DNA of 64,000 nt, taken from the NCBI GenBank assembly GCA_902793605.1, contig CADBEB010000002.1, positions 1 through 64,000 on the forward strand. The letters run 5' to 3'. Of the stretch, positions 9,785 through 24,573 are shown piece by piece (position 1 is the first letter of the stretch; each line of letters begins with the position of its first letter). This DNA comes from an uncultured Eubacteriales bacterium (GTDB taxonomy: Bacteria; Bacillota; Clostridia; Christensenellales; Aristaeellaceae). A model generated the notes under the pieces. It saw only the letters and a list, made by a program, of their open reading frames with translations, searched no databases and was not told the origin of the DNA. The translations under genes were made by a program, and so were the position numbers.

Positions 9785-11158
9785 TTACTTTGTATTGACT
9801 TCAAGAACGTATTGTTTACGTTCCTCGGGAATTTCGCTCCACAGCTGATCCGCTTTCGGTTTCCAGCAGTCCGCATAATGATCGCATTTGCCACAAAGAT
9901 GCTCAGCGGATTCCGGAGACTGCAGGTCTGTGGATCTGGCACCGGTCTTCTCAATGATGCCCCGGAGTTTTTGCGGATTCTCCAGCATAGGGCAGGGCTG
10001 GAACATGTTTTCATTGAAGGGCTGCCCGTCGTGATAGGCCTGGAAGAGAGGAGACCGGAGCCCTTCCAGAATTGTTTTCTCCCTAATGTTGGAATCCGAG
10101 TAATGCACGAAGACGCAGGGATCCATATCTCCGTTGGCATTGATGTGGAAATAGCGGCGGCCTCCGGCAATGCAGCCTCCCACGAACTCCGCGTCATTCT
10201 GGAAATCCATGGCGAACAGAGGCTTGCGGGTGCGATAATCCCGGATGCGGCGATAGACGGTTTCCCGCTGTTCCGGATTGGGCATCAGTTCAGGCGCGGC
10301 GTCATTACCCACCGGCATGTAGTGGAAGTACCAAACAAAGTATGCGCCTTTGGCAATCATCATGTCATAGTATTCTTCCGATGTGATGGAATCATAGTTG
10401 GCGCTGGTATAGCAGCAGGAAATACCGTAGGCCAGCTTCTTTTCATGCAGAATGTCCATGGCCCGAATTACTTTGGCGAAGACTCCGTCACCGCGCCGGA
10501 AGTCCGTCGCCTCTTCCATGCCTTCCAGGGAAATGGCAGGCACAAAGTTTTTCACCCGGAGCATATCTTCCGCGAACTGTTCATCAATCAGGGTGCCGTT
10601 CGTAAAGCATAGGAAAATGCAGTCGTCATGCTTTTCGCACAGCCGGATCAGGTCGGCTTTGCGGACCAGCGGTTCCCCGCCGGTGTAGATATACATGTAG
10701 ACGCCCAGTTCTTTGCCCTGACGGATAATATCATCAATCTCGTCGTAGGAAAGGTTCAGCCTGTTGCCATATTCCGCGGCCCAGCAGCCGGTGCAGTGCA
10801 AGTTGCAGGCGGAAGTGGGATCCAGCAGAATGGTCCACGGGATGTTGCATCCGTACTTCTCCTTGAGTTCCAGCTGTTTGGGCCAGCCGATCATGTTCTC
10901 GTTGATGAAAAAGTTCACCGCGATGGTTTTAAATACATCCCGGTCTACATCATTGATCAGATGACGGATATAGCCGTAGAACGGATGATCCGGGTTTTCT
11001 ACCGCTTCCCGCACCTGGGCCAGCTGGTGGGGATACATTTTCCCGGCATATTTATCCGCCCAGGACAGCAGGGTTCGCATATGCTTTTCCGGATCCTTGT
11101 ACAGATAGTTGAATGCCTGTTCCAGTCCGAATTTCTTCAGGGTGGTTGAAACGCTCAT
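9785..11158 (-). CDS. Radical SAM protein with SPASM-like C-terminus (paralogue 1)
   Basis: The 457-aa protein has the radical SAM cluster motif CNLHCTGC (C118, C122, C125) after a helical N-terminus of about 105 residues, then YIYTGGEPLVRK (the GGE SAM-binding motif). The C-terminal third has further cysteines (GGCIAGGRRYFHINANGDMDPC; CGKCDHYADC), suggesting extra Fe-S clusters of the SPASM/twitch type. The reaction is unknown. A close paralogue lies at 22753-24168. Start at 11158 follows GGAGG; the open frame upstream lacks a site. It is 112 bp downstream of the small alarmone synthetase on the same strand. Confidence 0.85.
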   Translation of the reverse strand: MSVSTTLKKFGLEQAFNYLYKDPEKHMRTLLSWADKYAGKMYPHQLAQVREAVENPDHPFYGYIRHLINDVDRDVFKTIAVNFFINENMIGWPKQLELKEKYGCNIPWTILLDPTSACNLHCTGCWAAEYGNRLNLSYDEIDDIIRQGKELGVYMYIYTGGEPLVRKADLIRLCEKHDDCIFLCFTNGTLIDEQFAEDMLRVKNFVPAISLEGMEEATDFRRGDGVFAKVIRAMDILHEKKLAYGISCCYTSANYDSITSEEYYDMMIAKGAYFVWYFHYMPVGNDAAPELMPNPEQRETVYRRIRDYRTRKPLFAMDFQNDAEFVGGCIAGGRRYFHINANGDMDPCVFVHYSDSNIREKTILEGLRSPLFQAYHDGQPFNENMFQPCPMLENPQKLRGIIEKTGARSTDLQSPESAEHLCGKCDHYADCWKPKADQLWSEIPEERKQYVLEVNTK

Positions 11159-11270
11159 GCAGACAGCCTCCTTCAGGTTTGATTTCGGCATCAGCATAAG
11201 CGTTTTCGGACAGGGCGTATATAAACAAACGGAGCGATTTATACAAAAACCGTACACTTTGGCCCATTTG

Positions 11271-11966
11271 TCAAGAAACAGTATGATCCACCTGCTTCTG
11301 GACAGCTTCCATGCGCCGGTCCAGCGCATCCCCCATCTCGGCACATTCCTTCAGTTCCTTTTCGATCTCCGGGGAAATGATCACATCTTTCTTATAGCGG
11401 ATCTTATGTTCCAGGCTGGCCCACCAGTCCATGGAAATCGTTCGGAACTGAACCTCCACCTTCATCAGTCTTTTCTGATCATGCAGGAAAATGGGAATCT
11501 GCACAATCAGGTGCAGGCTTCTGTAGCCGTTTTCCTTGGGATTGGCAATATAATCCTTTCTCTTGATCAGCGTTACATCGTCCTGCTTCAGGAAGGCCTC
11601 CGCCAGCATATAAATGTCTGAAGGATAGGAACAGATGACGCGAACTCCTGCCACATCATTCAGATGCTCCTCAATGCTTTCCACCGTCAGCGGAACTTGC
11701 CGGGCGGTCAGCTTGTTCAGAATGCTTTCCGGGGATTTCAGGCGGGTTTTGATGGCTTCGATGGGATTGCGATCATATTGCAAGCTCAGTTCTTCATTGA
11801 GCACGTTGAATTTCGTCTCCACGGTCATCATGGCGCAGCGATAAAACGCCATCAGTTCCCTGTAAGGGAGGGCAACCTGCTGAAGGCGTCCTTTCATGCT
11901 GCCCTGAGACAGACGGGAGATCAGATTCTGTTCCAGCGGGTTCAGTTCATTTCTGTGGAATTCCAT
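11271..11966 (-). CDS. Small alarmone (p)ppGpp synthetase, RelA/SpoT domain only
   Basis: The 231-aa protein consists of the RelA/SpoT nucleotidyltransferase domain with DVAGVRVICSYPSDIY, KENGYRSLHLIV and VEVQFRT, the core synthetase motifs. There is no HD hydrolase, TGS or ACT domain, and the length fits the RelQ/RelP (YjbM/YwaC) class of about 210-260 aa. These enzymes transfer pyrophosphate from ATP to GDP/GTP and are usually controlled by transcription. Transcription here comes from a consensus promoter at 12150-12178 that overlaps the tetR promoter, so the regulator next door may govern alarmone output (inference). Confidence 0.9.
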   Translation of the reverse strand: MEFHRNELNPLEQNLISRLSQGSMKGRLQQVALPYRELMAFYRCAMMTVETKFNVLNEELSLQYDRNPIEAIKTRLKSPESILNKLTARQVPLTVESIEEHLNDVAGVRVICSYPSDIYMLAEAFLKQDDVTLIKRKDYIANPKENGYRSLHLIVQIPIFLHDQKRLMKVEVQFRTISMDWWASLEHKIRYKKDVIISPEIEKELKECAEMGDALDRRMEAVQKQVDHTVS

Positions 11967-12101: not shown

Positions 12102-12126
12102 AACAGACGAATGATATTCGACTGTT
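12102..12126. promoter_or_regulatory. Near-perfect inverted repeat, probable TetR operator
   Basis: The two 11-bp arms match at 10 of 11 positions around a GAT centre (CGAAT-GAT-ATTCG core, outer AACAG/CTGTT). It ends 2 bp before the -35 of the tetR promoter and lies in the early transcribed region of the leftward alarmone synthetase transcript. Position and symmetry fit autoregulation by the adjacent TetR protein. TTTAGTTG occurs on both sides, at 12091 and 12161. Confidence 0.7.
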
Positions 12127-12128
12127 TA

Positions 12129-12157
12129 TTGATTAGGGACAAAAATGATATTATAAT
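12129..12157 (+). promoter_or_regulatory. tetR promoter
   Basis: TTGATT (12129-12134), 17 bp, TATAAT (12152-12157). Its -10 shares 4 bp with the -10 of the leftward promoter at 12150-12178. Confidence 0.8.
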
Positions 12158-12178
12158 ACGTTTAGTTGGTATTGTCAA
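12150..12178 (-). promoter_or_regulatory. Consensus promoter for the alarmone synthetase and radical SAM genes
   Basis: On the minus strand TTGACA (12178-12173), exactly 17 bp, TATAAT (12155-12150): a perfect sigma-A consensus. It overlaps the tetR promoter, so the two are likely to exclude each other. Confidence 0.8.
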
Positions 12179-12235: not shown

Positions 12236-12817
12236 ATGAAAAGCAACCAGACCAAGAAAGCGCTGGCGGAAGCGCTGAAACAGCTGCTGACCAGGAAACC
12301 GATCAATAAGATCACGATTAATGATATTACGGAGCAGTGCGGAATCAGCCGCATGACCTTCTACTATCACTTCAAGGATATCTACGATCTGGCGGAATGG
12401 ACGCTGGAAGAAGCAACACAGCAGATCATTGGCGAGAATCGGTACGCGGATAACTGGCAGCAGGGGTTTCTGGATCTGCTGAAAGAAGTGAAAGATAATC
12501 AGAAGCTGTACATGAACGTTTATCGTTCCATGGATCGGGAAGCGATCGAACGGTATCTGCTGAAGAAGGTAGAACCTCTTCTGATGCCTGTGGTGGAAAA
12601 GGAGGCCGCAGGGATGGGCATCAGTCCGGAAGGAAAACGCGTGGTCGCCATCTTCTACACCTATGCGTTTATCGGCGTTGTTCTGGACTGGATCAGCAAG
12701 GGTATGCCCCTGACACCGCAGCAGGTAGTAACACTGACTGCGGCAGTTGTTCAGGGCGATTTCAGGAATTCCCTTCAGAACCTGAAAAATCTGGACATAT
12801 CGCGGTTTAACGCGTAA
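12236..12817 (+). CDS. TetR-family transcriptional regulator (DhaS-like)
   Basis: The 193-aa protein has a standard N-terminal TetR helix-turn-helix (ALAEALKQLLTRKPINKITI, then DITEQCGISRMTFYYHFKDIYDLAEW), with SRMTFYYHF as recognition helix. The C-terminal half is a ligand/dimer domain like those of DhaS-type members and ends in a hydrophobic helix. The start is the ATG at 12236 after GAGGAGGAAAC; an in-frame ATG eight codons earlier overlaps that site. It probably binds the inverted repeat at 12102-12126 and perhaps the dyads at 14346 and 19982. A lipid or acyl-CoA ligand would suit the neighbours, but that is inference. Confidence 0.88.
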   Translation: MKSNQTKKALAEALKQLLTRKPINKITINDITEQCGISRMTFYYHFKDIYDLAEWTLEEATQQIIGENRYADNWQQGFLDLLKEVKDNQKLYMNVYRSMDREAIERYLLKKVEPLLMPVVEKEAAGMGISPEGKRVVAIFYTYAFIGVVLDWISKGMPLTPQQVVTLTAAVVQGDFRNSLQNLKNLDISRFNA

Positions 12818-12905: not shown

Positions 12906-13580
12906 TCAACAGACGAACTTTTCGATGTGCGAAGCAACTTCATCCGCAATGGCTCTGTGTCCATTCTCATTGGGATGAATTCCATCGGCGCACATGAGGT
13001 CTGGAAAATCCAGCTGCTCCAGCATCCAGGCACGTACATTCAAGAAACGGCAGTTTTTTTCGATAGCGATATCCCAAACGGCAATGGCATACCGCTCCTG
13101 CCATCGGCAGATGCTTTCAGGATCATCTTCCAGGTAATGAAGAATGTTTTCACTATTCCGGTTCCGGGAAACCCACTGGAAATATCTGGAACCGATCAGA
13201 GGCAGACAGGGTATCAGAATCGGTTCCAGTTGCCGCTGCCTTGCTTCTTCTACGAAAGTGCCAAGCACTTTGCGAAAGTCTGCAAGGGGAACCTTTCCAT
13301 CATGGAAATGAGCCGGGTCATTGGATACGGCATCCCAATCCAGATCACAGTCATTTCCTCCGAATTGAATTACACAGCTTGAACCCGGTTCAAGCGGCAG
13401 ATTTCTGAAGTCACGAAGCCCATCCAGTACAGTGTGTCCGTGAACAGCGTAATTTCGAATCGGATATCCAAGATGTTTCAGCAATCGGATGCAGCCCGAT
13501 CGGGATACCCGATACTGGTTGTTTTCATCCAGAACGATCCCCTGACTGGCGGAATCGCCAAACATATATATCTCGGACAT
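12906..13580 (-). CDS. SGNH/GDSL-family hydrolase
   Basis: The 224-aa protein carries the SGNH blocks in order: GDSASQG near the N-terminus (nucleophile serine), a central glycine block, FGGNDCD (block III, N) and ADGIHPNENGH (block V Asp-x-x-His). No signal peptide is present, so it should be a cytoplasmic esterase, lipase or carbohydrate esterase. The ATG at 13580 is chosen because GGGTG lies upstream, whereas the in-frame ATG at 13601 is only about 11 bp from the predicted transcription start. It is divergent from the DUF1836 regulator. Confidence 0.85.
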   Translation of the reverse strand: MSEIYMFGDSASQGIVLDENNQYRVSRSGCIRLLKHLGYPIRNYAVHGHTVLDGLRDFRNLPLEPGSSCVIQFGGNDCDLDWDAVSNDPAHFHDGKVPLADFRKVLGTFVEEARQRQLEPILIPCLPLIGSRYFQWVSRNRNSENILHYLEDDPESICRWQERYAIAVWDIAIEKNCRFLNVRAWMLEQLDFPDLMCADGIHPNENGHRAIADEVASHIEKFVC

Positions 13581-13618
13581 TATCGTTTCGCACCCTTTCA
13601 TATCTGGTATTCGAAACT

Positions 13619-13647
13619 ATAATAAATCATACGCTTTACTATGTCAA
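13619..13647 (-). promoter_or_regulatory. Promoter of the SGNH hydrolase gene
   Basis: Minus-strand TTGACA (13647-13642), 17 bp, TATTAT (13624-13619). Its -35 is 10 bp from the -35 of the divergent promoter at 13658, and the two -35 boxes form an inverted repeat TGTCAA/TTGACA. Confidence 0.8.
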
Positions 13648-13657
13648 TAGTTTTCGT

Positions 13658-13686
13658 TTGACAATATCTTGGAATCATGATATCTT
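13658..13686 (+). promoter_or_regulatory. Promoter of the DUF1836 regulator gene
   Basis: TTGACA (13658-13663), 17 bp, TATCTT (13681-13686), back to back with the SGNH hydrolase promoter. Confidence 0.7.
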
Positions 13687-13728
13687 TTGATCAGCTATCA
13701 AATGATTTCCTTTGAGGAGGGATCTTTG

Positions 13729-14196
13729 TTGGAACGAGAGGAAATCATTCGTTCTTTGGAAGGGCTCAGACTGCCGGAATGGGAACAGCTGCCGGATTTT
13801 GGGCTGTATATGGACCAGCTGGTCACTTTTGTCGGGCGTTCTTTTCCGGGAATCAGCGGCAGGCTTGACCTGACACCAAGCATGATAAATAATTATGTGA
13901 AAGCAGGACTGATCGAAAAACCTTCCGGGAAAAAATACAGCAGGAATGCGCTGGCCCAGCTGTTGATGATCTGCTTGCTGAAACTGACCACACCGCAGAA
14001 CATTCTCCGCAGACTGCTGCATCCGGAAGATGGAACGGAGACAAAGACGATGTATCAGACATTCCGGGCGACGCAGGAACGTATGGGCGCAGAAATCAGC
14101 CGTATGAAAGATTCTTCTGCGCTGGTTTGCGCTATGGAGTCATCTTTCCTGCAGCTGGCGCTTCGCCTGTGGGATGATTCCGGCGAAAAGAAGTAA
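13729..14196 (+). CDS. DUF1836 (MerR-like) DNA-binding protein
   Basis: The 155-aa protein matches DUF1836: an N-terminal segment (LPDFGLYMDQLVTFV), then a winged-helix-like stretch LDLTPSMINNYVKAGLIEKP and KKYSRNALAQLLMICLLK. The pattern of SMINNYVKxGLI followed by a basic turn is the MerR-like helix-turn-helix of this family, whose targets are mostly unknown. The start is uncertain: TTG at 13726 or 13729 follows GAGGAGG, and the ATG at 13702 overlaps that site. It lies directly upstream of the acyl ligase operon behind its own terminator, so it is a candidate controller of the shared dyad element. Confidence 0.8.
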   Translation: MEREEIIRSLEGLRLPEWEQLPDFGLYMDQLVTFVGRSFPGISGRLDLTPSMINNYVKAGLIEKPSGKKYSRNALAQLLMICLLKLTTPQNILRRLLHPEDGTETKTMYQTFRATQERMGAEISRMKDSSALVCAMESSFLQLALRLWDDSGEKK

Positions 14197-14287: not shown

Positions 14288-14341
14288 TGGAAAAATCGGA
14301 AGACGAAGATTGAACAATTCAATCGAATTGCACATAAATTT

Positions 14342-14400
14342 ATCATTTTCCCCATTCTGTAAGTGGTGAAAACACACGATGCCCGTTATGCTGTAATTGT
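14342..14400 (+). promoter_or_regulatory. Conserved upstream element, copy 1 (before the acyl ligase operon)
   Basis: A 59-bp stretch matches 19978-20036 at 46 of 59 positions without gaps, with TAAGTGGTGAAA identical. Within it 14346-14372 is a dyad: TTTTCCCCATT and AGTGGTGAAAA are complementary at 9 of 11 positions around CTGTA. A plausible -10 TATGCT (14387-14392) places the right arm over the -35 region (TGGTGA, 17-bp spacing), so a bound regulator could block the promoter. The ligase ATG is 33 bp further on. Confidence 0.75.
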
Positions 14401-14433
14401 TGAAGAATCTGCGGAACCAGGGAGGGACTGAAT

Positions 14434-15897
14434 ATGAACTATTTTCTGGGAAATATGCTTCCGGAGGAGCGAAACGCTTTGCCGGATTTACGAACCACGG
14501 CGGCTTTTGTTTCCTGGATTACTGAACGCTATGGAGATCAGCCCGCACTATCCAATGAAAAGGAAAGCGTCACATACCGAGAACTGAGGCAGCGGGTTGC
14601 CGGAAAACGTCATCTGCTGGCCCGAATGGGAATGCCGAACGGCACGAACGTGGGCCTGCTGGATGTAAACAGCGTGGAGGAGGTGGAATGGTTTCTGGCA
14701 GTGACCAGTTATGGTTGCTGTGCGGTGATGCTGCCGCCATCCATGAGTCCGGAAGTACTCCGGAGAGCAGCGGATCATTATGATCTGTCCGCTCTCATTC
14801 AGGGAGATCAATTCGCTTCCAAAACAGAAGGTCTTTCCCTGAAAACCATTTCCATGCATGAAATGGATGATGAAGGTTCGGATCCAAAGGACGTACAGGG
14901 TACGGATCTGGCCGCGATTTTCTTCACCGGTGGAACGACAGGCACGCCCAAAGGGGTGATGCTGAGCCATCAGGCACTGATGCGCGGAGCAAAGAACGGT
15001 ACCTACCGCCGGGGAACGATTTACGGCCAGACCCTGGTAGCAGCTCTGCCCTTTACCCATGTGTTCGGGATGATCTTCAGCATGCTCAGCGGACTGTATT
15101 GTGGATCCCATGTGTGGGTCTGCTCAGAGATGCGCCTGTTATTCCGGGAAATGGGGCGTGTTCGGCCGACCACGATGATTGCCGTGCCCGGAATGGCGGA
15201 ACTGATGCTTAGCGTTGCAAAAGCAAAGGGGATCGAAGCGCTGGGAGGACGCCTGAAGCTGATTATCTGCGGAGCGGCACCTGTGCCGGCGAAACTGAGA
15301 GAGGGATTCGACCCCCTCGGAGTGGAAGTGCTGGCAGGCTACGGTCTGACAGAGACGGCTAACCTCGTCAGCGGCAATCTGGATATGTTTTTGCATCCCG
15401 ATTCTGTCGGAAAACAGTATCCTGATCAGGAATACCGTCTGGTGGAGGGAGAACTGCAGGTCCGCGGGGATATGCTTTTTGACGGCTACTGGAAGGATGA
15501 GGCAGCGACCCAGGCAGCCATGACGCAGGACGGATGGTTCCGGACCGGTGATCTGGCCCGGGTGGATACCGATGGTTTTTTGTACATTATAGGCCGTTCA
15601 AAGAACCTGATCATCCTCAGCAACGGAGAGAATGTTTCCCCGGAGGAGGTGGAGGCCGCCTTCTACCGCAGTCCCTGCGTGCGGGAATGTCTGGTTTCCG
15701 AAACGGCCATCAACGGGAAGCCTGCCATTCTCCTGGAGGTTGTGCCTGCTCCCGGGGTGGATGAAGAGATCGTGATGTCCGTCCTAAAAACCATTCGGGA
15801 GGAGCTGCCGTCGCCTATGCGCCCGGCCAGGATGATCCTGCGGAAGGAAGAGTTCGAAAAGAGCGCAAGCATGAAGATCGTTCGAAAGAAGGGATGA
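14434..15897 (+). CDS. AMP-dependent acyl-CoA/acyl-ACP ligase
   Basis: The 487-aa adenylate-forming enzyme has the P-loop signature FFTGGTTGTPKG (163-174), the GYGLTETANLVS motif, the GWFRTGDLARVD block, and a near-C-terminal lysine in SMKIVRKKG. It activates a carboxylic acid, most likely a fatty acid, as acyl-AMP and passes it to CoA or to an acyl carrier protein. The ACP gene starts directly after its stop codon, so loading of that ACP is the simplest reading. Ribosome-binding site GGGAGGGA precedes the ATG. First gene of a rightward operon behind the conserved element. Confidence 0.9.
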   Translation: MNYFLGNMLPEERNALPDLRTTAAFVSWITERYGDQPALSNEKESVTYRELRQRVAGKRHLLARMGMPNGTNVGLLDVNSVEEVEWFLAVTSYGCCAVMLPPSMSPEVLRRAADHYDLSALIQGDQFASKTEGLSLKTISMHEMDDEGSDPKDVQGTDLAAIFFTGGTTGTPKGVMLSHQALMRGAKNGTYRRGTIYGQTLVAALPFTHVFGMIFSMLSGLYCGSHVWVCSEMRLLFREMGRVRPTTMIAVPGMAELMLSVAKAKGIEALGGRLKLIICGAAPVPAKLREGFDPLGVEVLAGYGLTETANLVSGNLDMFLHPDSVGKQYPDQEYRLVEGELQVRGDMLFDGYWKDEAATQAAMTQDGWFRTGDLARVDTDGFLYIIGRSKNLIILSNGENVSPEEVEAAFYRSPCVRECLVSETAINGKPAILLEVVPAPGVDEEIVMSVLKTIREELPSPMRPARMILRKEEFEKSASMKIVRKKG

Positions 15898-16158
15898 ATG
15901 ATGATGGAAACGCTGAAAAACATTTTCTCGCTTGTCAGACCGGAAATGGATGTGTCCTCCATCACCCGGGATACGCAATTAACGCAGGAGCTTGGGCTGG
16001 ATTCTCTGGATTTTGTCCTGCTGATGATGGAAATCGAGGAAACATATCAGATTCAGTTTTCCGGTATGGAACACTTTGAGACGGTGGGAGATGTATGCGA
16101 TTACATTGCAGAAAGAATCCGGGAGAACAATGAACCGGCAGCTTGCAGTCATCCCTGA
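15898..16158 (+). CDS. Acyl carrier protein
   Basis: The 86-aa protein has the carrier motif LGLDSLDFV with the phosphopantetheine serine at residue 36 and the acidic helix LLMMEIEETYQI behind it. The C-terminal extension is a little longer than that of AcpP. It begins immediately after the ligase stop codon (TGA-ATG), which implies tight translational coupling. Two more in-frame ATGs follow at once, so the exact start could be 15901 or 15904. As a dedicated ACP beside ligase and acyltransferase it probably carries exogenous or modified fatty acids. Confidence 0.9.
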   Translation: MMMETLKNIFSLVRPEMDVSSITRDTQLTQELGLDSLDFVLLMMEIEETYQIQFSGMEHFETVGDVCDYIAERIRENNEPAACSHP

Positions 16159-16173
16159 TCGGATTGCAGAAAC

Positions 16174-17454
16174 ATGATGATGAAAAGCGTGAAAAATAAT
16201 GTGAAGTTGAAGGATCGGCCGGGTTTCGAGACTCTTGGAATGAGAAACCTTTACCGAGCGCTGTATCCGTTCTTTCATTGCAAATGCGAATTTCCGGAAG
16301 AAATCACATGCAGTGATGAACCTACGGTGTTTATCGCAAATCATTACAGCGTTTTTGGCCCGATTTCCTTTATTCTTTCCGTGCCATTTGTCCATTGTGC
16401 CTGGATGAATGAGGATCTTGTTACTCCTGAGAAAACGGAAGGTGCGGTATACCAGGGTGTGAAAGAAGTATTTCCATATCTGAAACCGCGCTTTATCCGG
16501 AAGATCTGCTCCTTTTTAAGCGGACATGTCTGTTCCGTTATGCTGCATTTCGGATATATTCCAATTGACCGGAACGATGCCGGGAAACTGATCGGCACTT
16601 TGCGCAAGAGTGTACAGACACTGCAGGATGGGAACAACATTCTGATTTTCCCGGAAAAGGGGAATCCCGGTTTTTCCCTGACGTCTGTCACGGAGTTTTA
16701 TGAAGGCTTCGCAACCCTGGGAGCCTATTATCAGAGAAAAAACGGGAAAAGGCTGCGCTTTTGTCCGGTTTATATTGATGAGCAGCATCACATCATTCGA
16801 AGCGGTGAGCCGGAATATTATGATTGCACGGAGCGAAACATGCGGGAGGAAAATGAACGGATTTCTCACGCCCTGCATGACCGGATTGCCGAGATGGCTG
16901 CGTGTTCTCACGGGGAGGAAAAGGAACAGAGAACCCCGAAGCGGATCGGACTAATGCATCTGTGCAATGTGCTGCGCATTCTGATGTTGATTCCCCTGCT
17001 CATTGTCATGCACTCCCCGTCAGGCACAGTGACTCTGGCACTTTATCTTCTGTCGCATGTTTTACTGGCGGGGTTCAGTACCGCAGTTGGAACGGTACCC
17101 GCAACCAATCATATTTCATGCATGATTTCTCATTTCATCAGCATTCTGACAGATTTATGCGTGCTCATCCATTTTCGTGCAAACAGGTGGCATGATTTCC
17201 TGACGGTTGGTCTGATCCTGAACGGTCTTGTGTTTCTCATCATGAATATTTATGTGTATCTGAAGGAGCGGAAATGCGCTGGAACCAGCTATTTTGATTC
17301 AGTGTCCGTCAGCATGATCGGATTTGTCAATTTGCTGCTGATCACCAATGTTCGGCTGACCCGGGCGATGCTTCACACAGTACTGTTGTTTTCTGCAATC
17401 TTTTTAACGCTGTCAACGGTTTCCGGAGTGATGTTCAACCGGAGACTGCTGTAA
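16174..17454 (+). CDS. PlsC-like acyltransferase with C-terminal membrane domain
   Basis: The 426-aa protein has an N-terminal acyltransferase domain: NHYSVFGP at about 56-63 in place of NHx4D, an IPIDRND block (motif II) and FPEKGNPGF (motif III). The catalytic aspartate of HX4D is glycine at position 62, as in an EIYGP-type variant I associate with Bacillota, so activity should be tested. Residues 270-426 form about five hydrophobic helices. It could transfer acyl groups from the neighbouring ACP to a glycerolipid. Starts 15 bp after the ACP gene, in the same operon. Confidence 0.75.
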   Translation: MMMKSVKNNVKLKDRPGFETLGMRNLYRALYPFFHCKCEFPEEITCSDEPTVFIANHYSVFGPISFILSVPFVHCAWMNEDLVTPEKTEGAVYQGVKEVFPYLKPRFIRKICSFLSGHVCSVMLHFGYIPIDRNDAGKLIGTLRKSVQTLQDGNNILIFPEKGNPGFSLTSVTEFYEGFATLGAYYQRKNGKRLRFCPVYIDEQHHIIRSGEPEYYDCTERNMREENERISHALHDRIAEMAACSHGEEKEQRTPKRIGLMHLCNVLRILMLIPLLIVMHSPSGTVTLALYLLSHVLLAGFSTAVGTVPATNHISCMISHFISILTDLCVLIHFRANRWHDFLTVGLILNGLVFLIMNIYVYLKERKCAGTSYFDSVSVSMIGFVNLLLITNVRLTRAMLHTVLLFSAIFLTLSTVSGVMFNRRLL

Positions 17455-17538
17455 GCAGTCTTTCGTTGGTGGAGAAAAAAACATGGATGAATCAAGAAGA
17501 GCGGATTTCCGGCAGGTGCGACAGAAGGATGGTGGAAG

Positions 17539-18729
17539 ATGGACAATATTCTGTCCTATATCAAATGGCGAGGGGATTTGACTGTCAGACAAAGCAGATT
17601 CAATGAGGTGGACAACCTGATATTATCCACATTGAGCTATCTGAGCTTTGATGGGATCATCCCGGAAAGTCCCGCTGGAAGTATATCCATCGGACAGGCT
17701 GCTCAAAGGTATTTTAGGCTTCATCCGCTACCGGATGAGCAGGACATCGAAAAAATGAATACAGGATCCGGACGGGAGTGGATGTTTTATCTGATGGCTT
17801 CTTCCCGACGTTTCCGGAATATGCGCCTGTCAAATTATAAGAATATTCTTGATCCGGAGAGTGTGAAACAGTTTACCGCCATGACTATTCACACATCCAG
17901 AAACGACTTGTACATCGCATATCGCGGAACAAACGATACCCTGACAGGCTGGAAAGAGGATTTCCTGCTGGCTTGTCTGCCTGAAGTCGCTTCCCAGGAG
18001 GAAGCTGTGAATTATGCCAGAACAGTAGCGGAACAATATACGCAGAAACGGTTGTTTCTGGGTGGTCATTCAAAGGGCGGTAATCTGGCGGTTTACGCCG
18101 CAGTGAAAGTACCCATGAACATTCAGGATCGGATTCAGACTGTCTGGTCTAATGACGGACCGGGCTATCAGGAGGACTTTATCACATCCGAATCCTATCT
18201 TCGCATGGCAGCGAAAATCCATACGATTGTCCCCAAATCCTCCGTCGTCGGTATGCTGATGGCTCATGATCATCAATACACCATTGTGGACAGCTATCAG
18301 AAGGGACTGCTGCAGCACGACGGGCTGTCCTGGAGGGTCATTGGAAATCAGTTCGTACACTTCCCGGAACTGACCAGGGAAAGCCAGGCGGCAGGGCGTA
18401 GTATACGGACATGGCTGGATACGCACCCGCAGGAGGAACGGCTGGCTTTTGTGAACGCACTGTTCGATGTGCTCAGCGCAACCGGTACACAAAAACTTTC
18501 TGAAATTCGTCGGGATCGGATTAAATCGATGATTGTTTCTCTCCCTTATTATCGGGAACTCCCCAAAGACACGCGGGAGCAGATTCTTCGATTTTTCGTA
18601 CTGCTCAACAGCGTTACTCTACGCCTGAACAATGAAACGGCGATTGAGAAAACTTCCAGAATGATCGGAAAGATTTCCTTTTCCACCCGCAGCGCAGGAC
18701 GAAAAGCGAGAGAAGAAAGAAAACGGTAA
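17539..18729 (+). CDS. DUF2974 (Mbeg1-like) alpha/beta hydrolase
   Basis: The 396-aa protein resembles the DUF2974 lipase-like family. It begins with the typical DNILSYIKWRGDLTV and FNEVDNLILSTLSYLSFD, and has IAYRGTNDTLTGWKEDF and the nucleophile elbow GGHSKGGNLA. The serine of GHSKGG would be catalytic. No signal peptide is seen, so a cytoplasmic lipase/esterase role is likely, fitting the lipid enzymes around it. It lies 84 bp after the acyltransferase gene with no obvious terminator between them. Confidence 0.82.
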   Translation: MDNILSYIKWRGDLTVRQSRFNEVDNLILSTLSYLSFDGIIPESPAGSISIGQAAQRYFRLHPLPDEQDIEKMNTGSGREWMFYLMASSRRFRNMRLSNYKNILDPESVKQFTAMTIHTSRNDLYIAYRGTNDTLTGWKEDFLLACLPEVASQEEAVNYARTVAEQYTQKRLFLGGHSKGGNLAVYAAVKVPMNIQDRIQTVWSNDGPGYQEDFITSESYLRMAAKIHTIVPKSSVVGMLMAHDHQYTIVDSYQKGLLQHDGLSWRVIGNQFVHFPELTRESQAAGRSIRTWLDTHPQEERLAFVNALFDVLSATGTQKLSEIRRDRIKSMIVSLPYYRELPKDTREQILRFFVLLNSVTLRLNNETAIEKTSRMIGKISFSTRSAGRKAREERKR

Positions 18730-18767
18730 GCAGCAGATGAATGTAGCATGATACAGGAGGAGTGAAC

Positions 18768-19943
18768 ATGCGGCAGAAAGGCGATCATCCAATCACCGCG
18801 GAAAGAATTGCAGTTGAGCGAATCCTATGCGGCATTCTGGCTGCTTTTCTTGTTCTGCTGATCATTCGGCAGCTTTTCCGGCTGGGATGGACCTGGATTG
18901 GGCCTTTCCTGGTTGCGCTGCCAATTGCTGCGTTATTGCAGCCGGCAGTTTCTTTTTTCAGCGACAAATGCAAAATGCCAAAGGGGATTGCCGCATTGAT
19001 TCCGGTTCTGTTTTCAATATTATTGCTGTGCATCTGTCTGTTTTTAATCGTCAGCCATCTTGTGAGGGAAACAGAACAGATTGCCAGCAATCCTTCGGTG
19101 ATTCTGACCGGTTTAACGGATATATTTCAGCAGATCAGCCATAAACTGGAGACGATGGCATCATCCCTGGGGCTGGAAGGAAGGACATGGGCCATGGAAT
19201 TCACAGGGGAAATATCGCAACACCTTTCTTCCTGGCTTACCGCGTCTGCTGGAAAACTCAGCTCCTTTGCGGGACAGCTGGTTTCCCATGTGACAGATTT
19301 CATTGTTTTCCTTACTTTCTGTATGATGGGACTGTTTTTCCTGACCAGAGATTATGACCTGATCCAAAGCATGTTCCAAAAATGGAAATCCAGTCTGTTG
19401 CGTGGGGAAGCACGAAATCTTTTTCAGGCAGGATTAACAGGCGCTCTGGGCTATATCAGGGTGCAGGCGTTTTATGCCATTGTTTCTCTTGTTGCGGGTA
19501 TCGTTTTCTGGAGCATACAGGGGAATCCCTATGCGGCTATTATTTCCATCACAGCGGCTGTTCTGGAGTTTATTCCTGTTGTTGGGAACGGCACCGTGTA
19601 TCTTCCCTGGGCTGCCGTGGAGATTCTCCTTGGCAATTTCTCAGCCGCGCTGTATCCGCTCGGCTTTTTTCTATGCCTGCTATGGTTTCGCAGGCTTACG
19701 GAACCGAGAATGCTGTCCAGAAAAATCGGGATTTCACCATTGCTCAGCCTGATCAGCACATATGTAGGGCTGAAAGCAGGAGGTATCGGAGGAATGATTA
19801 CGGGACCTGTCATGATGACAGTGTTGGTTACTTTCGTTCGCGGTTCCTGGCTGCAGATATTGAAAACGGATATCAACACAATCCGAAGCTATTTGCATCA
19901 TCGGTGGCATCCGGAAATTTCTGGGGAAACCCGGGGGAAATAA
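18768..19943 (+). CDS. AI-2E family (YdiK/PerM-like) membrane transporter
   Basis: The 391-aa protein has the AI-2E family layout: two N-terminal membrane helices, a cytoplasmic or periplasmic helical stretch (residues about 95-180) and five to six C-terminal helices including FIPVVGNGTVYLPWA and the GGIGGMITGPV block. Family members export small molecules or ions; the name does not prove AI-2 transport. The ATG at 18768 lies 7 bp after CAGGAGG. It closes the ligase-led operon, about 40 bp after the hydrolase. Confidence 0.85.
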   Translation: MRQKGDHPITAERIAVERILCGILAAFLVLLIIRQLFRLGWTWIGPFLVALPIAALLQPAVSFFSDKCKMPKGIAALIPVLFSILLLCICLFLIVSHLVRETEQIASNPSVILTGLTDIFQQISHKLETMASSLGLEGRTWAMEFTGEISQHLSSWLTASAGKLSSFAGQLVSHVTDFIVFLTFCMMGLFFLTRDYDLIQSMFQKWKSSLLRGEARNLFQAGLTGALGYIRVQAFYAIVSLVAGIVFWSIQGNPYAAIISITAAVLEFIPVVGNGTVYLPWAAVEILLGNFSAALYPLGFFLCLLWFRRLTEPRMLSRKIGISPLLSLISTYVGLKAGGIGGMITGPVMMTVLVTFVRGSWLQILKTDINTIRSYLHHRWHPEISGETRGK

Positions 19944-19977
19944 TGTCTTACAAATGCGCTGGAATGTACACATTTTC

Positions 19978-20036
19978 ATCATTTCGCCCTTTCTATAAGT
20001 GGTGAAAGCGAAAAATGCCGCATATGCTGTATTTGT
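19978..20036 (+). promoter_or_regulatory. Conserved upstream element, copy 2 (before oleate hydratase)
   Basis: This matches 14342-14400 at 46 of 59 positions. The dyad corresponds to 19982-20008 and is less symmetric than copy 1. The putative -10 TATGCT is retained. The oleate hydratase ATG is 38 bp downstream. Two copies before two lipid operons argue for one regulator. Confidence 0.75.
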
Positions 20037-20074: not shown

Positions 20075-21853
20075 ATGTATTATTCCAGTGGTAATTATGA
20101 GGCATTTGCACGTCCGGAGAAACCGGAAGGCGTCGATCGGAAAAGCGCCTATATTGTCGGTACCGGACTGGCTGCGCTGACGGCTGCCTGCTATCTGGTG
20201 CGCGATGGACAGATGAAGGGCAAGCGGATTCATATTTTTGAGAAAGATCCGATTCCCGGCGGAGCCTGTGACGGATGGGAATATCCCGGTCTCGGATACG
20301 TGATGCGCGGCGGACGGGAAATGGATAACCATTTCGAGGTTATGTGGGATCTGTTCCGTTCCATTCCTTCCATCCAGACGGAAGGCGTATCCGTACTGGA
20401 TGAGTATTACTGGCTGAACAAGAAGGATCCCAATTTCAGCCTGTGTCGCGCGACCGTCAACCGTGGTCAGGACGCGCATACCGATGGAAAGTTTGCCATC
20501 AGCGACAAAGGCGCGATGGAAATCATGAACCTGTTCTTTACCCCGGATGAGGAACTGTATAACAAGAAGATTACCGATTATTTTGACGACGAGGTGTTGA
20601 ACAGCAATTTCTGGCTGTACTGGCGCACCATGTTCGCCTTTGAAAACTGGCACAGCGCACTGGAAATGAAGCTGTATATCAAGCGGTTCATCCATCATAT
20701 CGGAGGATTGCCGGATTTCAAGGCTCTTCGCTTCACAAAGTATAATCAGTATGAATCCATGATTCTGCCCATGATCAAATATCTCGAGAGCCATGACGTG
20801 CAGTTCCATTACAACACAAAGGTTGTCAATGTTCAGTTTGATATCCTTGCCGACGGAAAGAAATACGCCACCAGTATCGAGGTGATGCACGAGGGAGAAA
20901 AGGACTATGTCATGCTGACGGACGATGACCTGGTGTTTATCACCAACGGCGGATGCGTGGAGAATTCCACCATGGGCAGCCAGAACAAACCCGCGGAATT
21001 CAATCCGGAGATCAGGCCCGGAGGCGGCTGGGATATGTGGCGTCGGATTGCCGCGCAGGATCCCTCTTTTGGTCACCCGGACAAGTTCTGCTTTGACCCG
21101 GAACAGACCAACTGGATGAGTGCCACGGTAACCACCCTGGACTACCGCATCATTCCCTATATTGAAAAGATCTGTAAGCGGGACCCCTTCAGCGGAGGCG
21201 TGGTGACCGGGGGGATTGTGACGGTAAAGGATTCAGGATGGCTTATGAGCTGGACGATCAACCGGCAGCCTCAGTTCCGCAATCAGCCGAAGGATCAGTG
21301 CCTGGTGTGGGTGTACGGACTGTTTACAGACAAGGACGGAGATTTCATCAGGAAGCCCATGCGGGAATGTACCGGGAAGGAAATCTGCATGGAATGGCTG
21401 TATCATCTGGGCGTGCCGGAGAGCGATATCCCGCGCATGGCGGAGGAAAGCGCCAACACCGTGCCGGTGATGATGCCATATATTACCGCGTTCTTTATGC
21501 CCCGCGGAAAGGGAGACCGGCCTGATGTGGTGCCGGAAGGGGCTGTGAACTTCGCTTTCCTGGGGCAGTTTGCCGAGACGAAACGGGATACCATCTTTAC
21601 GACGGAGTATTCCATGCGGACCGGTATGGAAGCGGTCTATACCCTGCTGAACATCGATCGGGGCGTGCCGGAAGTCTGGGGAAGTACCTATGACATCCGC
21701 GATCTGCTGAATGCCAGCGTGAAGCTCCGGGATGGCCGTCCGCTGACAGATATGAAACTGAACCTGATCGACAGAACCGCGATTCACGAGCTTCTGAAGC
21801 GCGTGCACGGAACGGATATTGAAAAACTGCTGAAGGATTATCAGGTCATCTGA
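20075..21853 (+). CDS. ohyA: Oleate hydratase (FAD-dependent)
   Basis: The 592-aa protein is full length for the family (about 590). It has an FAD/Rossmann motif YIVGTGLAALTAACYL (27-42), the family hallmark MRGGREMDNHFEVMWDLF with the catalytic glutamate at residue 82, and the FWLYWRTMFAFENWHSALE stretch. Oleate hydratase adds water to the cis-9 double bond of free oleic, palmitoleic or linoleic acid, giving 10-hydroxy acids; it is widely linked to detoxifying host unsaturated fatty acids. A strong AAGGAGG precedes the ATG. It heads the second operon behind element copy 2. Confidence 0.95.
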   Translation: MYYSSGNYEAFARPEKPEGVDRKSAYIVGTGLAALTAACYLVRDGQMKGKRIHIFEKDPIPGGACDGWEYPGLGYVMRGGREMDNHFEVMWDLFRSIPSIQTEGVSVLDEYYWLNKKDPNFSLCRATVNRGQDAHTDGKFAISDKGAMEIMNLFFTPDEELYNKKITDYFDDEVLNSNFWLYWRTMFAFENWHSALEMKLYIKRFIHHIGGLPDFKALRFTKYNQYESMILPMIKYLESHDVQFHYNTKVVNVQFDILADGKKYATSIEVMHEGEKDYVMLTDDDLVFITNGGCVENSTMGSQNKPAEFNPEIRPGGGWDMWRRIAAQDPSFGHPDKFCFDPEQTNWMSATVTTLDYRIIPYIEKICKRDPFSGGVVTGGIVTVKDSGWLMSWTINRQPQFRNQPKDQCLVWVYGLFTDKDGDFIRKPMRECTGKEICMEWLYHLGVPESDIPRMAEESANTVPVMMPYITAFFMPRGKGDRPDVVPEGAVNFAFLGQFAETKRDTIFTTEYSMRTGMEAVYTLLNIDRGVPEVWGSTYDIRDLLNASVKLRDGRPLTDMKLNLIDRTAIHELLKRVHGTDIEKLLKDYQVI

Positions 21854-21915
21854 TTGCCGCGGTATGCCTGCTGCAATGAACAGAAGCAAGATCTTCAACA
21901 AGGAGTGTGGAATCC

Positions 21916-22698
21916 ATGATTGAGAAGGTAAATCCGGGCCATCCGGATAAAATAGCGGATCGAATTGCAGGCGCACTTGTGGACTGGGCATACACTGCGC
22001 ATAAGGATCCCAGAATCGCTGTGGAGGTGCTCCTGGGGCATGGGAATTGCCATATCATTGCGGAGACCTCTGTCCATATTCCGGAAACCAGCGTACAGGA
22101 GATCGTCTCACGGATCGCTGGGGACGTGATGCTTGATTATCTGGAAGTGCCGCAGGATATTCACCTGGCAGAAAATCAGGATGGTGGCGTTCGTTGCGGC
22201 GACAACGGTATCTTTAAAGGAATGCCGCTGACAGAGGAGCAGAAGAAGCTTTCGGCGATAGCCCGGAGCATCTATGCGAAATATCCGTATGACGGGAAGT
22301 ATGTGCTGAACGGGGAGCAACTGATTATCTGTCAGAGCAATGCAGGGAGGGCTTCCCTTGCTGAAGACTTTCCTGTTGCGCAGATCAATCCTTTGGGAGA
22401 CTGGACCGGAGGCACTGATGTGGATAGCGGAGCCACGAATCGCAAACTGGGCAGCGATATGGCAGACAGCGTTACCGGCGGCGGACTGCATGGGAAGGAT
22501 CTTTCCAAGGCAGATGTATCCGTGAATATCCACGCGTTTCTGAAAGCACAGCGAATCGGAGCGCCTGTTGAACTGTGCTGTGCCATTGGAGATGAAAGAG
22601 TGGACGGTGTCCCCTATGCTGAGATCGTTGAAGAAGCCAGGAACTATGTCAGGTCCGTCGGAGGATTTGAGAAACTGGCGGAATGGGGCCTTTTCTGA
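21916..22698 (+). CDS. Compact S-adenosylmethionine synthetase homologue
   Basis: The 260-aa protein keeps recognisable MetK motifs: GHPDKIADRI (8-17; ATP/methionine-binding loop), CGDNGIFKG (equivalent of GDQG), TNRKLGSD (the RK pair), GGGLHGKDLSKADVS (equivalent of GGAFSGKDPSKVD). It is about 130 residues shorter than usual MetK (about 390), with the loss mainly in the middle. It may be a genuine small enzyme or a repurposed nucleotide-binding homologue. Placement 55 bp before a radical SAM gene hints at local SAM supply or SAM-analogue handling. ATG at 21916 follows AAGGAG; the GTG nine bases earlier is too close to it. Confidence 0.75.
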   Translation: MIEKVNPGHPDKIADRIAGALVDWAYTAHKDPRIAVEVLLGHGNCHIIAETSVHIPETSVQEIVSRIAGDVMLDYLEVPQDIHLAENQDGGVRCGDNGIFKGMPLTEEQKKLSAIARSIYAKYPYDGKYVLNGEQLIICQSNAGRASLAEDFPVAQINPLGDWTGGTDVDSGATNRKLGSDMADSVTGGGLHGKDLSKADVSVNIHAFLKAQRIGAPVELCCAIGDERVDGVPYAEIVEEARNYVRSVGGFEKLAEWGLF

Positions 22699-22752
22699 GA
22701 CTTCCGGGAACTGAATGAAAAATAAATGATTGAAAGAAAAGGAGTGCAGCCC

Positions 22753-24168
22753 ATGAATCTTTCGGAGAAACTGAAATCCATTGGTGTAAAACAGGTGCTC
22801 AAATATGTGGATAAGGATTTTGAGCATAACGCGGTGAAAGTTTGCGACTGGCTGATTGACCATGATAAGGATGGCGGCGTGAAAAACGAAGCCACCATGG
22901 TGCGGAATGTGCTGCAGGATCCGGACAGCAACTGGTATCAGCTGGTGAAGAGCCTGTACACGGAAATTGATGACGAACAGCGGAAAAGACTCCTTGAGAA
23001 TTTTGTGATCAATGCCTGCCTGATCGGCACACCCACCGGTTTTGAAAACAGTGTCCGGTATGACTGCAATGTGCCCTGGGCGATTCTGATGGATCCCACA
23101 TCCGGCTGCAATCTGCACTGCACAGGCTGCTGGGCTGCGGAATATGGAAACAAGCTGAACCTGACACTGGAGGAACTTGACAGCATCATCGCGCAGGCGG
23201 AGGACCTGGGATGTTACTTCTTTATCTACTCCGGCGGGGAACCGCTCGTACGGAAAAAGGATATCATCACCCTTTGCGAACGTCATCCGGAAGCGGCCTT
23301 CCTTTCCTTTACCAACGGCACCCTGATCGATGAAGTGTTCGCGGATGAAATGCTACGGGTGAAGAACTTTGTTCCTGCCATCTCCATCGAGGGCTTTGAG
23401 GAGGAGACGGATTTCCGGCGCGGAAAAGGAACCTATGCTTCCGTTGTGCGGGCCATGAATCTGCTGAAGGAACGAAAACTGCTTTTCGGAGCGAGCTGCT
23501 GTTACACGTCAAAGAATGTGGAAGTGATTGGGAGCGAAGCATATTTTGACAGCTTGATTGATCTGGGCGCAAAGTTCATGTGGCTTTTCACCTACATGCC
23601 GGTTGGCGTGGACGCGGTGCCGGAGCTGATGGCAAGCAGCGAGCAGCGGGAGTATATGTACCATTTTGTCCGGGCTATGCGGGATAAAAAGCCCCTCTTC
23701 ACCATGGATTTCTGGAACGATGGGGAATACGCGGACGGATGCATCGCCGGAGGACGGCGCTATCTGCATATCAACGCCAACGGAGATGTGGAGCCCTGCG
23801 CCTTCATCCATTACAGCGACAGCAATATCCGGGAAAAAAGCCTGCTGGAGGCGCTGCAGTCTCCGCTATTCATGGCCTATCACCGGGGACAGCCCTTTAA
23901 TGAGAATATGCTCCGCCCCTGCCCGCTGCTGGACAATCAGGGGAAACTGGCGGAAATGGTAGATGCGTCCGGAGCTCATTCCACGGATCTTCAGAATCCG
24001 GAGGACGTGCATGAACTCTGTGCCAAGTGCAAAGCTGCTGCTGACTGCTGGCAGGTCACCAGTCAGGAACTCTGGGAGGAGGACCATGGACCTGAAAGGT
24101 GGGAGGCCAAAAAAGTCAAAATCGCTGAACGGAATCAGAAATTGCAGAATAAGGTCAGGCGTGCCTGA
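22753..24168 (+). CDS. Radical SAM protein with SPASM-like C-terminus (paralogue 2)
   Basis: The 471-aa protein shares motifs and overall layout with the protein at 9785-11158: CNLHCTGCWAAEYGN (C119, C123, C126), FIYSGGEPLVRKKDI, FTNGTLIDE, GGCIAGGRRYLHINANGD, and the closing CAKCKAAADCW. The N-terminal helical region differs more (RYDCNVPWA replaces KYGCNIPWT). The reaction is unknown; radical SAM enzymes in lipid loci can form C-C or ether-type links, but nothing here proves that. The ATG at 22753 lies after AAAAGGAGTG. It follows the SAM synthetase homologue in the oleate hydratase operon. Confidence 0.85.
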   Translation: MNLSEKLKSIGVKQVLKYVDKDFEHNAVKVCDWLIDHDKDGGVKNEATMVRNVLQDPDSNWYQLVKSLYTEIDDEQRKRLLENFVINACLIGTPTGFENSVRYDCNVPWAILMDPTSGCNLHCTGCWAAEYGNKLNLTLEELDSIIAQAEDLGCYFFIYSGGEPLVRKKDIITLCERHPEAAFLSFTNGTLIDEVFADEMLRVKNFVPAISIEGFEEETDFRRGKGTYASVVRAMNLLKERKLLFGASCCYTSKNVEVIGSEAYFDSLIDLGAKFMWLFTYMPVGVDAVPELMASSEQREYMYHFVRAMRDKKPLFTMDFWNDGEYADGCIAGGRRYLHINANGDVEPCAFIHYSDSNIREKSLLEALQSPLFMAYHRGQPFNENMLRPCPLLDNQGKLAEMVDASGAHSTDLQNPEDVHELCAKCKAAADCWQVTSQELWEEDHGPERWEAKKVKIAERNQKLQNKVRRA

Positions 24169-24234: not shown

Positions 24235-24573
24235 ATGAAAATGGCAATATTGAATCGAAGTATCAGAAACATGGTGCTTGCGGGAATCGGTGCGGCAGCG
24301 CTCGCACATGAGGAAAGCAGCGATCTGCTTCATCATCTGGTTGAAAAAGGTGAGGCAATTGTCACAAACAGTGGGATCCAAAATGAGCTGCTTCATCATG
24401 ATCCGGATGACATGAAAGAAACAGAAACGCCTGTGGATGAAAGCGCATGGCTGGATACACTCTGCAGGATGACACCCGATCAGCTGGGTGTCTTGAAGGA
24501 AGCGATTCATTCGGTCGAATGGGCCAGGAACAACAATGCTGGCGATGAAAATGCGGACGAGGAAGAAGGATAA
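24235..24573 (+). CDS. Phasin-like small protein
   Basis: The 112-aa protein starts with a hydrophobic helix followed by a GIGAAALAHEESSDLLHHLVEKGE stretch, which resembles the phasin-like family (VLAGIGAAALxxEKxxELLDELVKKGE) associated with lipid or polyhydroxyalkanoate granules and often found beside UbiB kinases in Clostridia. The C-terminus is acidic (DENADEEEG). No PHA synthase is in the window, so a storage-granule role is unproven. It ends 5 bp before the kinase gene and is certainly co-translated with it. Confidence 0.7.
   Translation: MKMAILNRSIRNMVLAGIGAAALAHEESSDLLHHLVEKGEAIVTNSGIQNELLHHDPDDMKETETPVDESAWLDTLCRMTPDQLGVLKEAIHSVEWARNNNAGDENADEEEG

Follow-up and report, generated by a model that had tools for sequence, protein, structure and literature searches.

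What controls the oleate hydratase gene (ohyA) and the acyl-ligase operon preceding it in an uncultured Eubacteriales bacterium of the family Aristaeellaceae? Oleate hydratase is a main bacterial defense against toxic unsaturated fatty acids, and its direct regulator and operator are not defined in the accessible literature. The locus lies in the stretch of DNA analyzed here (the window; positions 1 to 64,000 of contig CADBEB010000002.1), in which an earlier reading, referred to as the original prediction, had noticed that positions 14342-14400 and 19978-20036, located before the two lipid operons, match at 46 of 59 positions without gaps, and had ascribed the match to a shared regulator. We found from the sequence that the 59-bp stretch is the larger part of a predicted operator-promoter module of about 87 bp, which has three copies in the window, recurs family-wide in the same register, and is linked to genes of DhaS-like TetR regulators.

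The match of 46/59 was borne out, with a window-wide runner-up of 31/59 and a maximum of 35/59 (mean 27.6, standard deviation 1.4) for the best 59-mer in 1000 dinucleotide-preserving shuffles of both upstream regions. The distances given to the start codons, 33 bp for the ligase and 38 bp for oleate hydratase, were correct, and the TATGCT sequence noted in both copies was present in both. The length of 59 bp was real but too short, the true start lying about 36 bp further upstream; the full elements span 87 columns in a single register (Table 1). Likewise, both copies were real, but a third one, on the minus strand at 11279-11193, had been overlooked. When the 3.25-Mb genome was searched in full with blast and strict patterns, close copies were found at the two known places only, and the identical element pair and locus was present in one further genome of the same genus (the sister genome). 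Elsewhere in the family, with this genome and its sister excluded, matches with 3 mismatches were about as frequent as those of a reversed control pattern. Copies 1 and 2 agree at 36 of 61 positions outside the half-sites and the -10 box.

Architecture of the module

Upstream sequences of oleate hydratase and linked acyl-ligase genes were gathered from other genomes of the family (G-numbers denote genomes), and an expectation-maximization motif was learned from 19 non-redundant upstreams, leaving out the window and its sister. The motif likelihood was 297 with the real upstreams versus 127-136 with ten shuffled sets. On the 64,000 plus-strand positions of the window, the motif ranked 19942 first (35.5 bits) and 14306 second (21.1 bits), with the third place at 9.1 bits. 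Seventeen of the 19 upstreams align gap-free across 91 columns, among which T24, G25, C39, T53, and T59 are invariant and C10, A11, A40, G54, and A58 are nearly so. The motif itself ended before the -10 region. A TATAAT-like hexamer (at least 4 of 6 bases) lies 20-21 nt past the box in all 17 aligned relatives, and the TATGCT of the original prediction was therefore identified as the -10 box. That prediction had also suggested a genome-wide motif search as a check. Here the search was run on the whole genome with R1, a sequence-only profile of the 17 relatives, and its three best matches were the three copies: 19943-20028 (E 4.1e-5), 14307-14393 (0.006), and 11275-11193 on the minus strand (0.0085), followed by the next match at 0.08. 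Copy 3 shares the TATGCT box and also carries the canonical TTTG-TTTAT box. When R1 was run family-wide, the strongest matches were nearly all in hydratase genomes or in a genus with DUF308 sites.

Four dinucleotides are conserved in a fixed register, CA-N12-TG-N13-CA-N12-TG, and the simplest reading is that of two predicted tandem operators, nnnCA-N12-TGnnn, of 22 bp each and 7 bp apart. At the 26 R1 sites outside the training set, the dinucleotides were kept in 26, 25, 18, and 22 cases, respectively; since the sites were selected by the model, these counts are a description and no independent test. The outer and inner pairs are symmetric around one center, and for this reason several relatives match on both strands. 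The dyad claimed by the original prediction is weak in the window copies, where it is a degenerate version of one that relatives show clearly. With a transcription start about 7 nt past the -10 box, as we infer, the operators would lie roughly between -87 and -37. The -35 hexamer is not conserved, which explains why a standard promoter scan did not list the element promoters. A TTTC/GAAA palindrome within the 59 bp was dropped, because it is spaced one base differently in the two copies, and on inspection by eye the spacing did not fit sigma-54 or extracytoplasmic function promoters.

The linked regulator and its proposed mode of action

Two candidate regulators had been named by the original prediction, the TetR protein encoded at 12236 and the DUF1836 protein. 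In most relatives, an orthologue of the TetR gene adjoins ohyA or the ligase gene. TetR orthologues with 61-63% identity are encoded directly 5' to the ligase, acyl carrier protein (ACP), and ohyA genes in G100, G162, G196, G248, and G294, and 5' to a contig-truncated ligase gene in G048. Orthologues with 46-51% identity are encoded directly 5' to ohyA in G008, G096, G146, G165, G208, G249, G257, and G274, and 5' to the second ohyA of G095. In four hydratase genomes (G120, G144, G200, and G091), no TetR match was found at E<=1e-20 and no element at ohyA: the upstreams of G120 and G144 score below zero, that of G200 is 99% identical to that of G144, and in G091 the hydratase is only 36% identical and the R1 matches are weak and located elsewhere in the genome. 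Comparing 22 genomes with the element (21 with the TetR gene and 1 without) and the 4 element-less genomes (all without) gave a Fisher probability of about 3e-4, in which shared ancestry is ignored. Of the same 27 genomes, 25 have DUF1836 homologues, the four element-less ones among them, and a homologue near ohyA was found in one relative only (G100). The DUF1836 protein was rejected as the regulator for being near-ubiquitous and showing no co-occurrence with the element, and the TetR protein was favored. The ohyA-linked TetR proteins show hardly any variation in the recognition-helix region (SRMTFYYHF or similar).

A second class of element, with TGTCC-type half-sites, is located before DUF308/MMPL genes and adjoins another TetR gene, whose product is 25-33% identical; in both proteins tested, the best NCBIfam model was DhaS. 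Since the ohyA-type and the TGTCC-type elements both stand beside DhaS-like tetR genes, the linkage between element and TetR holds for two separate gene sets. The claim of a shared regulator is therefore strongly supported, not by the pair alone, but by the same architecture before ohyA and ligase genes of the family and by its tracking of the TetR gene.

Other sequences were observed around the two regulator genes of the window. A 25-bp palindrome, AACAGaCGAATgatATTCGaCTGTT, at 12102-12126 lies directly 5' to the -35 of tetR and may be a separate or autoregulatory site, and the minus strand carries a divergent promoter, TTGACA-17-TATAAT at 12178-12150, which overlaps that of tetR. A GDSL-like hydrolase gene and the DUF1836 gene form a divergent pair at 12906-14196, which is also kept near ohyA in G100, and the DUF1836 promoter region holds a TTTGAT-N5-ATCAAA dyad near 13689-13705.

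We propose that the three promoters are under the joint control of the DhaS-like TetR, which would be fatty-acid-responsive, would bind the tandem operators, and would most likely be an activator; we regard this as probable. The TetR would occupy both operators, of which the proximal ends at about -37, sense an unsaturated fatty acid or an acyl derivative, and recruit RNA polymerase at a promoter with a weak -35. The resulting regulon would hydrate the fatty acid, activate it to acyl-ACP or acyl-CoA, and re-route it. Activation is suggested by the operators lying upstream of the core promoter and by the lack of a conserved -35. Activation of the three promoters by fatty acid is proposed because DhaS is named an activator, and because of FarR, the oleate induction seen in Lactobacillus, and a pneumococcal DhaS-like TetR. 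Several observations weigh against the proposal. Copies 1 and 3 score only 17-18 bits and the half-sites of the window are degenerate; the tetR promoter of the window has only half of the element; the TetR scores 101 bits with NCBIfam TIGR02366 (DhaS), its best family, below the cut-off of 129; G119 has the element and no TetR match at E<=1e-20, and G047, G244, and G261 have weaker TetR homologues only; and the co-occurrence counts come from related genomes and so lack independence.

The main rival is that the same TetR, on the same operators, represses, as TetR proteins mostly do, and is released on binding a fatty acid. The proximal operator would end near enough to the core promoter, at about -37, to obstruct polymerase, and the part of the element found at the tetR promoter would fit autorepression. 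However, the core promoter lies downstream of both operators and has no conserved -35, and DhaS, the nearest characterized relative, is named an activator. Moreover, Staphylococcus aureus FarR, a TetR regulator of the fatty-acid response, is required for farE induction (PMC12098983). On balance we consider repression unlikely. Binding by another regulator, either DUF1836 or an unlinked activator of the LysR or CRP type, with an incidental TetR linkage, appears more improbable still. A dyad centered near -62 with a further half-site near -40 would also suit LysR-type or class I activators, and no regulator gene of the window lies nearer than that of DUF1836, but its presence regardless of the element and the adjacency of two diverged element classes to DhaS-like tetR genes argue otherwise.

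Alternatively, the conserved dyad could belong to an RNA leader, an attenuator, or the terminator of the gene before it. Hairpins are seen in many relatives with tetR immediately upstream, and in several the central dyad forms part of a strong hairpin that has co-varying arms, is followed by a T-rich tract, and lies directly 3' to tetR. Yet the window, G095, and G146 keep the TG/CA and -10 register without such a hairpin, and what is conserved is located upstream of the -10 box; this explanation is very improbable. No Rfam family reached its gathering score on the element, and the only match of a permissive search across the window stretch, a sub-threshold one, was inside the AI-2E gene. As its own refuting alternative, the original prediction had named the trace of a recent duplication without function, and copies 1 and 2 are indeed highly similar, even at some linker positions, which would agree with it. 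This alternative was not supported and is hardly credible: the same architecture is kept before ohyA in diverged genomes and before different genes, the linkers vary but the half-sites and the -10 box keep their register, and there is copy 3, which has diverged further.

Genes under the element in the window and in relatives

Table 1. Coordinates of the element copies and of the genes around them in the window; operators and operon limits are predictions.
Feature	Position	Strand	Remarks
Element copy 1	14306..14392	+	before the acyl-ligase operon; covers 14342-14400 minus its last 8 bases; second-best motif site
Copy 1 distal operator GAACA-N12-TGCAC (predicted)	14312..14333	+	register from relatives
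Copy 1 proximal operator TATCA-N12-TGTAA (predicted)	14341..14362	+	register from relatives
Copy 1 -10 box TATGCT	14387..14392	+	41 bases 5' to the ligase ATG
Element copy 2	19942..20028	+	before ohyA; covers 19978-20036 minus its last 8 bases; best site of the genome
Copy 2 distal operator TTACA-N12-TGTAC (predicted)	19948..19969	+	
Copy 2 proximal operator CATCA-N12-TATAA (predicted)	19977..19998	+	
Copy 2 -10 box TATGCT	20023..20028	+	46 bases 5' to the ohyA ATG
Element copy 3	11193..11279	-	before radical-SAM gene 1; predicted operators 11273-11252 and 11244-11223; -10 TATGCT 11198-11193
DhaS-like TetR regulator	12236..12817	+	proposed binder of all three copies
tetR promoter	12122..12158	+	CTGTTTATTG box and TATAAT at the spacing of the element, without the upstream half; weak, 5.1 bits
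Radical SAM/SPASM protein 1	9785..11158	-	under copy 3
DUF1836 protein	13729..14196	+	other candidate regulator, not favored
AMP-dependent acyl ligase	14434..15897	+	first gene under copy 1
Acyl carrier protein	15898..16158	+	
PlsC-like acyltransferase, C-terminal part membrane	16174..17454	+	
Mbeg1-like (lipase-fold) protein	17539..18729	+	
AI-2E-family membrane protein	18768..19943	+	
Oleate hydratase (ohyA)	20075..21853	+	first gene under copy 2; NF010584, 937 bits
Radical SAM/SPASM protein 2	22726..24168	+	downstream of ohyA; orthologues in relatives have their own element copy
Phasin-like protein (weak match)	24235..24573	+	G095 homologue has its own element copy

Family-wide, the element precedes ohyA, acyl-ligase, radical-SAM, tetR, phasin-like, and DUF308/MMPL-pump genes, usually with a DhaS-like tetR gene adjacent. 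Outside the training set, R1 matched before radical-SAM orthologues in G025, G053, G100, G146, G165, G249, G274, and G285; in G146 and G274, one element is common to tetR and a divergent radical-SAM gene. Further copies were located before an MCRA paralogue gene directly after tetR (G025), before a phasin-like gene and a VTT-domain gene (both in G095), and, mostly in another genus, before DUF308 and MMPL genes; the genes found in this way belong to the same cluster or share its theme. Since radical-SAM and phasin-like genes are also part of the ohyA cluster of the window, the same gene set recurs under the element with a differing operon structure. By eye, no element was seen before ligase orthologues lacking an adjacent ohyA (G236, G211, G279, G076, L020, and L021).

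The two radical SAM/SPASM proteins of the window are related and flank the lipid cluster, and their orthologues carry the element in several relatives. Between ohyA and the second of them, a MetK-like protein of 263 amino acids (21907-22698) matches only the N-terminal part of S-adenosylmethionine synthetase, and a homologue is also encoded 3' to ohyA in G120. An additional ligase-ACP pair is present in the sister genome (G218; L089, 2130-3813), with 61% identity to the window ligase; this pair was not found in the genome of the window at E<=1e-100, and by eye no element was seen upstream of it. The other genus (L194 from 1270, L202 from 53, L195, L197, L203, L205, L206, and L210) has a cleaner element, GACAAAA..TGCCCAAATTTTGGGCA..TTTTGTCC, with a DhaS-like tetR on one side and a DUF308 gene on the other; in G250, the DUF308 gene is read in one frame with an MMPL pump.

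These arrangements may represent two lineages of one operator, the TGTTTAT type before ohyA and the TGTCC type before DUF308/MMPL pumps, within a family-wide regulon in which DhaS-like TetR activators with tandem operators would switch on the steps by which unsaturated fatty acids are hydrated, activated, and handled at the membrane, and radical-SAM/SPASM enzymes would be members. We put this forward tentatively, at somewhat below even chances; if true, it would tie radical-SAM/SPASM enzymes to fatty-acid metabolism. In the literature searched, which left most subscription journals outside, no tandem-operator element was met that defines an ohyA regulon together with radical-SAM and ligase-ACP genes. 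The element offers a precise predicted operator and a named candidate regulator for ohyA, and the regulon as read here places radical-SAM, acyl-ligase/ACP, phasin-like, and MMPL-pump genes beside it.

Comparison with known regulators

TetR control of fatty-acid responses and activators of the DhaS type are already known. In vaginal lactobacilli, oleate co-induces ohyA, the efflux pump gene farE, and a tetR gene (PMC11429459). Co-induction is shown there; in the accessible part of that report the tetR product is a putative regulator of farE only, and no operator is given before ohyA. In Streptococcus pneumoniae, the TetR protein SPV_0647 has a predicted fold closest to 4MK6 and is also DhaS-like, and its loss lowers fatty-acid genes, suggesting activation (PMC12647141). 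Its targets there, fabM, fakB3, and bioY, differ from those in the window, and the section consulted gives no operator. The FarR-FarE system resembles the present one in linking a tetR gene to genes of fatty-acid detoxification or efflux, and the arrangement in the other genus, with the element and a DhaS-like tetR before DUF308/MMPL-pump genes, looks like a fatty-acid efflux unit of this kind. In the window, however, the putative targets are ohyA and the acyl ligase, not a pump.

The closest likeness is to DhaS, named as the TetR-type activator of the dihydroxyacetone-kinase operon of Lactococcus lactis and a relative of the window TetR with a solved structure. The window TetR matches PF00440 and PF14278 (TetR_C_8) above cut-off, indicating a TetR fold with a TetR_C_8 C-terminal domain, and its best PDB matches are 2iu5 (DhaS, L. 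lactis) and 4mk6 (Listeria). With its 101 bits, under the DhaS cut-off of 129, it is classed as a DhaS homologue, not the equivalog. No dihydroxyacetone-kinase operon gene is among its annotated neighbors. The DhaS operator is GGACACAT-N6-ATTTGTCC, i.e. GGACA-N12-TGTCC. The inverted half-sites described here, upstream of the -35 and with 12 bases between CA and TG, have the same spacing, and the TGTCC-type elements of relatives match this operator closely; the GGACA/TGTCC half-sites are clear before the DUF308 genes of relatives and degenerate in the window. Unlike in DhaS, the operators here are tandem, and the putative targets in the window are lipid genes instead of dihydroxyacetone kinase. 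Together, these comparisons suggest that the DhaS-like TetR proteins of this family serve lipid stress rather than dihydroxyacetone metabolism.

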